Assembly (NCBI RefSeq): GCF_016901575.1
Contig: NZ_JACJKQ010000002.1
Span: 1-64,000 of the forward strand
Reading direction: 5' to 3'
Source: Enorma phocaeensis
GTDB lineage: Bacteria > Actinomycetota > Coriobacteriia > Coriobacteriales > Coriobacteriaceae
DNA length: 64,000 nt
This document shows, one piece after another, positions 35,887-39,378 of this stretch (position 1 is the first letter of the stretch; every line of letters starts with the position of its first letter). A program made the translations under genes and the position numbers. Under the pieces are notes generated by a model. It saw nothing but the letters and a program-made list of their open reading frames with translations. It was not told the origin of the DNA and did not search any database.

Positions 35887-36016
35887 ATGGCCGCCGGACT
35901 CCAAGGCCCGTCGCGCCGCCGGCGCGCGCCCCTCTTGGGGGCGGCGGCTGTCGGCGCGTCCGTGTCGTGGGTGGTGCGCGTATAACTTTGAACCTTGTGC
36001 ATCGCATGATGTGAAA

Positions 36017-36035
36017 ATTGAACTAATAGTTCAAT
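36017..36035. promoter_or_regulatory. Upstream palindrome ATTGAAC-N5-GTTCAAT
   Basis: Perfect 7-base arms around TAATA, placed just upstream of a TATACT -10 (36046-36051). Same half-site as the palindrome at 36058-36081, so the pair looks like a double operator flanking the promoter of the HTH-aminotransferase gene. Confidence 0.75.
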
Positions 36036-36045
36036 ATCAACGTGG

Positions 36046-36051
36046 TATACT
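36046..36051 (+). promoter_or_regulatory. -10 element TATACT between the two palindromes
   Basis: Lies between the operator-like repeats; the upstream palindrome covers the -35 area and the downstream palindrome covers the start-site area, an arrangement typical of repression. Confidence 0.5.
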
Positions 36052-36057
36052 CCCATA

Positions 36058-36081
36058 AAAATTGAACCTAAGTTCAATTTT
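36058..36081. promoter_or_regulatory. Downstream palindrome AAAATTGAAC-N4-GTTCAATTTT
   Basis: Perfect 10-base arms around CTAA, ending 23 bases before the GTG start. It shares ATTGAAC/GTTCAAT with the upstream palindrome, centre-to-centre distance about 43-44 bases, four helical turns. Confidence 0.75.
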
Positions 36082-36104
36082 GAATCTGACGGGAGTGACA
36101 TGCC

Positions 36105-37715
36105 GTGGGCGAGACGTTTTCAGAGCGACTAAGACATGCCTTGGCGAATGCCGGCATGAAGCAGGCCGATCTCATTCGTTGCGCCGCCCAGCGTGGCGAG
36201 CGGTTGGGAAAAAGCCAGGTAAGCCAATATGTAAGCGGAAAAACCGTGCCGCGGCGCGACGTGATGCGCCTGCTCGCCGACATCCTTTCGGTCGATGCGG
36301 CGTGGCTCGCCGGCGCGGACATGCAGGGCGCATGCGCCAAGGGCGCCGGGGCGGGCAAAGCCGCATCAAGCGGAGGGCGAGCTTCCGCGCGGCGTGAGGC
36401 CGCCCGTCGGGGCCCGTCTTCTCGGGACTCAGCTCATGTCGCGTCGCAGGCGGCGGCGCCCGTTCCGTCATCATCAGTTTCGCAAAGGAGCATCCCCATG
36501 CGTGAGTTCAAAAAGTCTTCCAAGCTTGACAACGTTCTATATGACGTGCGCGGCCCCGTTGCCGATGAGGCCGCCCGCATGGAGTCGGAAGGGCTGCGCA
36601 TCCTGAAGCTCAACATCGGCAATCCGGCACCCTTCGGCTTCCGCACCCCCGACGAGGTCGTCACCGACATGCGCCAGCAGCTTCCGGAGTGCGAAGGCTA
36701 TTCGGACTCTCGCGGCCTGTTTTCAGCACGCAAGGCAATCATGCAGTACGCCCAGCTCAAGGGGCTGCCAAACGTTGGCATGGATGACATCTACACCGGC
36801 AACGGCGTTTCCGAGCTCATCCAGCTGTGCATGAACGCGCTGCTGGACACGGGTGACGAGATTCTCATCCCTAGCCCCGACTACCCGCTGTGGACTGCCT
36901 GCGCAACCCTTGCCGGCGGCACGCCGGTTCACTACATCTGCGACGAGGAGGCGGAGTGGAACCCCGACTTGGCCGACCTCGAGTCCAAGGTCACCTCTGC
37001 CACCAAGGCGATCGTGATCATCAACCCCAACAACCCCACGGGGGCGGTCTATCCGCGCGAGGTGCTCGAGCAGATCGTCGAGATCGCTCGGAAGCATCAG
37101 CTCATGATCTTCTCTGACGAGATCTACGACCGCCTGTGCATGGACGGCATCGAGCACGTCTCCATCGCCTCGCTCGCCCCCGATCTTCCCTGCGTGACGT
37201 TCTCGGGCTTGTCGAAGAGCCATATGATCGCCGGTTACCGCATCGGATGGATGATTCTTTCCGGCAACAAGCGCTGCATGCGCGATTTCGTCCTCGGTGT
37301 GAACATGCTCTCCAACATGCGCCTGTGCTCGAACGTGCCCGCGCAGTCCATCGTTCAGACCGCTCTCGGCGGCCATCAGAGCGTGAAGGGCTACGTGGCG
37401 CCGGGCGGGCGCGTGTATGAGCAGCGGAACTATGTCTACGAGGCGCTGAACGCCATTCCGGGCATCACCGCGGTCAAGCCGAAGGCAGCCTTCTACATCT
37501 TCCCGAAGATGGATGTCGAGCGCTTCAACATCACGGATGACGAGCAGTTCGCGCTTGACCTGCTGCACGAGAAACGCATCCTCATCACGCGCGGCGGCGG
37601 CTTCAATTGGGGCAAGCCGGACCACTTCCGCATCGTCTATCTGCCGCGTATGGGTATTCTGCGCGAGGCGCTCGACGACCTTGCGGACTTCTTCGAGCAC
37701 TATCGTCAAAACTAG
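36105..37715 (+). CDS. XRE-HTH / class I aminotransferase fusion
   Basis: 536 residues from GTG. Residues 6-70 form an XRE/Cro-type helix-turn-helix (FSERLRHALANAGMKQADLI, SQVSQYVSGKTVPRRDVMRLLADIL). A 60-residue Ala/Ser/Gly/Arg linker follows, then at 132 (MREFKKSS) a complete class I aminotransferase with LNIGNPAPFGF, GNGVSELIQ, NPNNPTGAVY, SDEIYD and the PLP lysine (SGLSKSHM, Lys371). The enzyme part resembles the AlaA-type alanine/aspartate aminotransferases of about 405 residues. A strong AAAGGAG seven bases before the codon for Met132 (36498) indicates an internal start yielding the free enzyme. Two palindromes at the promoter suggest self-regulation. Confidence 0.9.
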   Translation: MGETFSERLRHALANAGMKQADLIRCAAQRGERLGKSQVSQYVSGKTVPRRDVMRLLADILSVDAAWLAGADMQGACAKGAGAGKAASSGGRASARREAARRGPSSRDSAHVASQAAAPVPSSSVSQRSIPMREFKKSSKLDNVLYDVRGPVADEAARMESEGLRILKLNIGNPAPFGFRTPDEVVTDMRQQLPECEGYSDSRGLFSARKAIMQYAQLKGLPNVGMDDIYTGNGVSELIQLCMNALLDTGDEILIPSPDYPLWTACATLAGGTPVHYICDEEAEWNPDLADLESKVTSATKAIVIINPNNPTGAVYPREVLEQIVEIARKHQLMIFSDEIYDRLCMDGIEHVSIASLAPDLPCVTFSGLSKSHMIAGYRIGWMILSGNKRCMRDFVLGVNMLSNMRLCSNVPAQSIVQTALGGHQSVKGYVAPGGRVYEQRNYVYEALNAIPGITAVKPKAAFYIFPKMDVERFNITDDEQFALDLLHEKRILITRGGGFNWGKPDHFRIVYLPRMGILREALDDLADFFEHYRQN

Positions 37716-38385: not shown

Positions 38386-39378
38386 ATGACTGAGTTCGGC
38401 AAAGTTGAAGAGATGGACAACGAGATGGACGAGACGATGGCCGAGGCCGCCGCGATCGCAGGCGTGTCCGAGTTTGACGAGATGGATGTTGAGGACGCGT
38501 CGATTCTGGCCGACGACGAGGCCGAGGATGCGGCCGAGGACGACAGCGAGGAGGACGAGGCTGCCGATCAGGACGGCAAGGTGGCTCCTGAGAACCTGGA
38601 CGACCAGCTCTTCGATAAGCTGAACCGTGCCGCTCGCCTTATGCGTGCCCGCCGCGACGTGCTCGCCGAGCAGGCGGCCGAGGAGGCCGAGCGCCTGAAC
38701 ACGCTGAAGCGCGCCCTCAAGCTTCTTGAGCTCAAGCCCAAGATGGAGGAGAAGGAGATGGCCGACCTCATGGGCATGCGTCTCCGTGAGCTCAACGACA
38801 TCCTGATCCAGGCCGAGAAGCAGGACATCGTCGCTCGCGTCGAGCCCGAGGACAACGACATGCGTCACGTGGTGGTCTTCGCCAGCGAGGATGCCATGGA
38901 GCTCGCCGAGGCCCAGGGCAAGAAGCGCAAGAAGTATATCCCGCAGCTCTCTGCTGAGTCCGCCGAGCAGCTGCTTTCCCTGCTTGACATGGTCATCGAC
39001 CCGCTCACCGAGATGGGTCTCGACCGTCCCGCCGAGAAGCGCGACGAGCGCGGCGGCGACCGTGGCGGCCGCGGCGGCTTCGGCGGCGGCCGCGGCGGCG
39101 ATCGCGGCGGACGTGGAGGCTTCGGCGATCGCGGCGGACGCGGCGGCTTCGGCGGCGGCCGCGGCGGCGACCGTGGCGGACGCGGAGGCTTCGGCGACCG
39201 TGGCGGCCGCGGCGGCTTCGGCGGCGACCGTGGCGGACGCGGCGGCTTCGGCGACCGTGATCGTGGCGGCCGCGGCGGCTTCGGCGACCGTGGCGGTCGT
39301 GGCGGATTCGGTGGCCACAACGACCGTGGCGGACGCGGCGGCTTCGGCGATCGCGGCGGACGCGGCGGTCGCTACTAG
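38386..39378 (+). CDS. Acidic / winged-helix / RGG-repeat protein
   Basis: 330 residues with AGGAGG-like site (GGAGGAACG) before the ATG. Residues 1-66 are Asp/Glu-rich and probably disordered. Residues about 70-212 resemble a MarR-like winged helix: long helices (LFDKLNRAARLMRARRDVLAEQ), an HTH (KEMADLMGMRLRELNDIL) and a two-stranded wing (QDIVARVEPEDNDMRHVVVF). From 221 to the end are about ten repeats of Gly-Gly-Arg-Gly-Gly-Phe-Gly with Asp-Arg spacers, an RGG/FGG tail of the sort that binds RNA or drives condensation in other organisms. The combination with a winged helix is unusual. Repeat DNA is GC-rich and nearly identical, so it may vary in length between strains. Confidence 0.85.
   Translation: MTEFGKVEEMDNEMDETMAEAAAIAGVSEFDEMDVEDASILADDEAEDAAEDDSEEDEAADQDGKVAPENLDDQLFDKLNRAARLMRARRDVLAEQAAEEAERLNTLKRALKLLELKPKMEEKEMADLMGMRLRELNDILIQAEKQDIVARVEPEDNDMRHVVVFASEDAMELAEAQGKKRKKYIPQLSAESAEQLLSLLDMVIDPLTEMGLDRPAEKRDERGGDRGGRGGFGGGRGGDRGGRGGFGDRGGRGGFGGGRGGDRGGRGGFGDRGGRGGFGGDRGGRGGFGDRDRGGRGGFGDRGGRGGFGGHNDRGGRGGFGDRGGRGGRY

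Follow-up and report, generated by a model that had tools for sequence, protein, structure and literature searches.

A CI-like DNA-binding head fused to an AlaA-type aminotransferase: a putative autorepressing trigger enzyme

Regulation and catalysis are joined in one protein in several described systems. MocR, GabR and PdxR carry an N-terminal DNA-binding domain, a winged GntR head in MocR (PMC6677901, PMC5320631), and a fold-type I aminotransferase domain in a single chain. PutA, BirA and NadR are trigger enzymes, that is, metabolic enzymes equipped with a DNA-binding head, and PutA regulates its own locus only (PMC8249747). A further point of reference is the CI repressor of phage TP901-1 (PDB 3zhm and 5a7l; PMC11149083). 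CI recognizes the half-site consensus AGTTCAYR (PMC8516035), and its Q45A/N48A variant is impaired in DNA binding (PMC11149083).

The window analysed here, 64,000 nucleotides of Enorma phocaeensis (contig NZ_JACJKQ010000002.1, positions 1 to 64,000), encodes a protein in which a CI/XRE-like head precedes an AlaA-type aminotransferase. Judged from sequence comparison, which brings out the fusion, a set of promoter boxes, their confinement to this promoter, joint gain and loss of head and boxes, and selection on an internal start, the fusion enzyme very probably controls its own synthesis. No publication on an XRE-AlaA fusion was found in the open-access literature. Annotators may already know the architecture, since CDD has an entry PRK13355 named 'bifunctional HTH-domain containing protein/aminotransferase'.

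The fusion protein and its domains

The gene follows a 2′-5′ RNA ligase-like gene and a GATase/phosphoribosyltransferase gene; this neighbourhood is ordinary, and the fusion gene thus appears to stand alone (Table 1). An ORF at 38386-39378 encodes a repetitive RGG-rich C-terminus (GDRGGRGGF units) without a Pfam match.

Table 1. Features of the fusion locus, in positions of the window.
Feature	Position	Strand	Remarks
Outlying degenerate box TTTGAACC	35988..35993	+	
Upstream box AAATTGAACTA	36015..36025	+	1 mismatch to consensus; centre ~-25 from -10 hexamer; left arm of first palindrome
First palindrome TTGAAC-TAATA-GTTCAA	36018..36034		
Upstream reverse box TAGTTCAATAT	36027..36037	-	Overlaps -35 region; right arm of first palindrome
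Extended -10 TGG-TATACT	36043..36051	+	TATACT at 36046-36051, TGG directly 5′ of it; TGnTATACT-like between boxes in relatives
Downstream box AAATTGAACCT	36059..36069	+	Centre +19; position best conserved among relatives (+16 to +19)
Second palindrome TTGAAC-CTAA-GTTCAA	36062..36077		Arms extend to AAAATTGAAC/GTTCAATTTT
Downstream reverse box AAGTTCAATTT	36070..36080	-	Exact consensus; sole exact copy in genome
Full-length fusion gene, 536 aa	36105..37715	+	CI-like HTH, linker and AlaA-type aminotransferase; single uninterrupted ORF from GTG 36105 to TAG 37713-37715
HTH head, residues 1-75	36105..36329	+	Top solved match phage TP901-1 CI N-terminal domain
Low-complexity linker, residues 76-131	36330..36497	+	Disordered, pLDDT < 50
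Internal Shine-Dalgarno AAAGGAG	36484..36490	+	Within linker-coding region, 7 nt before ATG 36498 (Met132)
Predicted HTH-free AlaA-type enzyme, 405 aa	36498..37715	+	From Met132; active-site residues present

An earlier note, made from the DNA letters, had described an HTH domain and an aminotransferase, both complete and joined by a low-complexity linker, in a design distinct from that of MocR, and this description holds. In Pfam searches the HTH_3 match is weak in the full protein and exceeds the cut-off when the domain is isolated; HTH_3 was found at E <= 0.01 in 16/16 relatives tested, and HTH_31 was matched in all 16 as well. The best solved match of the head profile in a PDB profile search is the N-terminal domain of TP901-1 CI (E 4e-16), and the helices of the head are predicted at pLDDT ~95, which together describe a Cro/CI-type fold. 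GntR was not matched in the Pfam search of the head; lacking a GntR head, the protein is not a MocR protein. Recognition-helix residues are invariant in the fusion alignment, as is head Q41, with which CI Q45 aligns, and some Lachnospiraceae heads even retain the four-residue insertion of CI. The core AGTTCA is common to the CI half-site and the fusion-gene box AAGTTCAATTT. The head is best described as a CI-type XRE domain, predicted to read the boxes of its own promoter. Many fusions of Coriobacteriaceae and Atopobiaceae keep a motif, RA[SA]AR.[EA][TA]A (36380-36402, residues ~93-99), in the otherwise variable linker.

The aminotransferase part comprises residues 132-536, of which PF00155 matches 166-512 (E 6e-55). 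Its nearest structure is E. coli AlaA (PDB 4cvq; E 2e-163), with 57% identity in an end-to-end alignment of residues 132-535, and a fold search with the full predicted model returned solely aminotransferases among the matches listed. The active-site residues N310, D338, Y341, K371, R379 and R509 are present and invariant across 36 fusions, the PLP lysine Lys371 included. By full-length homology this part is an intact AlaA-type glutamate-pyruvate aminotransferase; the NCBIfam model NF006230 for alanine aminotransferase scores 350.6 bits against a cut-off of 534, which leaves the exact substrate short of proof.

The protein is likely, in a reading held with good confidence, to be an autorepressing trigger enzyme whose single mRNA also yields a head-free enzyme. 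Each AlaA-type dimer would have two CI-like heads tethered by long flexible linkers; these heads would bind pairs of AAATTGAACTT boxes around the gene's own extended -10, and the promoter would be shut once enough fusion protein had accumulated. Flexible linkers would be the reason why variation in box spacing and orientation is tolerated. A strong internal Shine-Dalgarno (SD) sequence on the fusion mRNA would direct synthesis of a second product, the bare enzyme from Met132, which would partly uncouple catalytic capacity from repressor dose and could form mixed dimers with one head. We infer, rather than observe, that binding is mediated by dimers, that it represses rather than activates, and that both proteins are produced.

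The catalytic domain being intact, the enzyme might also sense its metabolites: PLP, PMP, alanine, glutamate or pyruvate at the active site would switch DNA binding and so report alanine or nitrogen status, in the manner of PutA and GabR. Precedents exist in PutA, a substrate-controlled single-target trigger enzyme (PMC8249747), and in the characterised MocR regulators, which bind PLP (PMC5320631). However, the long disordered linker offers no obvious path for an allosteric signal, and simple control of protein level explains all the data. Such gating is doubtful, if quite conceivable.

A predicted internal translation start

The head-free enzyme would start from the internal SD sequence, which lies seven bases before Met132 as the earlier note had reported, and which proves to be conserved at the nucleotide level. 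An AAGGAG-like sequence stands ~7 nt 5′ of the enzyme's first Met in nearly all fused genes, a few relatives (L088, L124) lacking a strong internal SD. SD energy has a median of -7.9 kcal/mol over 36 non-redundant genes, as against -1.5 kcal/mol at 597 other internal Met codons, and the SD beats a synonymous-codon null in 28 of these genes. Arg is encoded by AGG in 27/30 cases at the SD site and in 38/1103 elsewhere (Fisher p 3e-33, a value that ignores the relatedness of the rows). The same SD is encoded by differing amino acids and codon frames (QRS, LRS, PGS, GGE and KEH). For instance, locus L137 reads K-E in place of R-S from the same nucleotides, and Lachnospiraceae use GG/GE codons. The internal start is, on these comparisons, under nucleotide-level selection, and a head-free enzyme of 405 aa is accordingly predicted, as the earlier note had proposed. 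The length of 405 aa is also that of E. coli AlaA.

The AlaA gene that received the head already had its own start at this place, so an unused relic of ancestral unfused alaA, or else a ribosome pause site, could lie behind the signal, with the full-length protein as the only product. This is unlikely, since the SD has been kept across two phyla despite changes of amino acid and codon frame, at an optimal spacing from the ATG. An internal promoter in place of an internal translation start was also considered and set aside: no promoter-like site was found in the linker by a scan that is weak evidence here, as it also misses the extended -10 promoter.

Putative operator boxes at the fusion promoter

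The earlier note had proposed twin palindromes as operators. Both are present and flank the -10 hexamer, TATACT lying between them, and the two forward boxes are spaced by 44 bp. Their pairing is not conserved: relatives retain single boxes without it, which rules out the palindrome as operator unit. What is conserved, as a putative operator unit, is the asymmetric box AAATTGAACTT, found in either orientation and usually in two to eight copies around the extended -10. These boxes are phased on the extended -10. Most promoters have a forward box at +16 to +19, and upstream either a reverse box near -15 to -17 or a forward box near -22 to -26. Both palindromes of the present locus are converging box pairs that include the conserved positions, and their perfection is particular to this species.

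In its own genome (2.36 Mb), AAATTGAACTT occurs four times with at most one mismatch. Three of the four copies sit at the fusion promoter, and the arrangement of boxes and palindromes is therefore not due to chance. Exact copies of the 11-mer number 37 across 23 fusion genomes, and 35 of these are at the fusion promoter, which marks the head as a putative near single-target regulator. The shorter cores TTGAAC/GTTCAA number 128 in 26 upstream regions of 200 bp (5.2 kb), against 62 in 112 kb elsewhere in the same loci. A regulon search with patterns from the own genome and from relatives returned almost solely this locus. In some Lachnospiraceae box pairs occur at other sites too, and extra targets are possible there.

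Boxes lie upstream of the -35 region as well, and a good -35 is absent from the fusion promoter, features that would suit a head that activates its own promoter. Yet the most conserved box lies 3′ of the -10, where repressors typically bind, and the weak -35 is accounted for by the extended -10; activation is quite improbable.

Distribution of the fusion and relation to known systems

The fusion occurs in 27 of 40 relatives, one of which (L025) is interrupted by an assembly gap within the head, and in 80/80 named loci from Collinsella, Enorma, Olsenella, Slackia, Thermophilibacter, Eggerthellaceae and a few MAGs named Eisenbergiella. The frame is open in all 80, and the suggestion that the fusion is genuine rather than a sequencing error is thus upheld. 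A frameshift or split-gene artefact, or a head that is a non-functional leftover, has the absence of the head from a few relatives as its sole support and is refuted by the open frames, the invariant recognition helix and boxes that co-vary with the head.

An even draw of the phylum yielded 22 Coriobacteriia genomes with AlaA, the same 22 having the head, and 36 genomes of other groups with AlaA lacking a matching head. The exception among the sampled Coriobacteriia AlaA genes is an order relative, L028, which is unfused. No boxes were found upstream of unfused Actinomycetota AlaA genes. In the family of Eisenbergiella (Lachnospiraceae by name) the fused head was found in 10/100 genomes; 398 genomes drawn evenly from the phylum of Lachnospiraceae contained no fusion, the query genome apart. 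Fused and unfused AlaA coexist within Lachnospiraceae, about a third of the sampled AlaA genes being fused, and there at least two boxes precede 13/14 fused and 0/17 unfused genes. Two Lachnospiraceae fusions, L103 and L144, have one strict box each. The fused gene L198/L209, whose head is divergent (KLSKSQMSQYLSGR), lacks the box cluster and may use another operator.

A maximum-likelihood tree requires four head changes, with the unfused L028 on a long branch; a single gain inside a grade of Lachnospiraceae and three losses would account for them. Gain or loss of boxes tracks the head in 4/4 independent contrasts on the tree, though a sign test on four cannot reach significance. With the boxes essentially confined to the gene's own promoter, this joint history favours the autoregulation that the earlier note had predicted. 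Coriobacteriia sequences are nested among those of Lachnospiraceae, which suggests that the fusion was transferred between the phyla. A more tentative proposal, held at somewhat short of even confidence, is that feedback gain at a single promoter is set by the proportion of AlaA dimer subunits that carry a head, perhaps with a contribution from ligand occupancy. The fusion would then be an enzyme homeostat built on a captured phage CI-like head, and gene and operator would have travelled together between Lachnospiraceae and Coriobacteriia.

Some genomes show further arrangements. In the Eisenbergiella MAG loci L108 and L109 the fusion lies between a SpmB-like Gate-domain gene and a sodium:neurotransmitter-type transporter gene, neighbours in keeping with contigs that stem from Bacillota and perhaps with amino-acid uptake. 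The genomes of L095 and L109 (G422 and G426) have two fused copies each. That of L194 (G458) combines a fused AlaA with an unfused one, a paired comparison provided by nature.

The enzyme-regulator fusion is widespread in gut bacteria, including Collinsella, Olsenella, Slackia and Lachnospiraceae. Its head is unrelated to MocR, its putative near single-target operator can be recognised in the sequence itself, and the predicted second translation start is conserved. It offers a small and clean model for studying how autorepression may keep an enzyme at a steady level, how a flexible-linker repressor would act on variably spaced boxes and what role head-free proteoforms play. Annotation as an aminotransferase alone or a regulator alone overlooks half of the protein.

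The fusion shares with MocR, GabR and PdxR the order of a DNA-binding domain and a fold-type I aminotransferase in one chain. It differs from MocR in its CI/XRE-like head, its AlaA-type catalytic domain and a conserved internal start predicted to release the bare enzyme. E. coli AlaA (PDB 4cvq), in contrast, has no DNA-binding head. With the TP901-1 CI N-terminal domain (PDB 3zhm, 5a7l) the head shares the HTH subfamily, the AGTTCA half-site core and the DNA-binding Gln, and in both proteins a flexible linker leads to a dimerising domain; the C-terminal helical oligomerisation region of CI is replaced here by the enzyme. CI sites consist of two half-sites in the order GTTCA..TGAAC, whereas the boxes of the fusion form clusters of varied order and spacing. 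PutA, BirA and NadR belong to other enzymes and pathways, and no internal start for a head-free enzyme is described for them in PMC8249747. Like them, the fusion is a metabolic enzyme with a head predicted to bind DNA, and like PutA it is near single-target, to judge by box distribution. It would thus work as a trigger enzyme, a kind already known, of which the CI/XRE-AlaA combination appears to be a variant new to the open-access literature.
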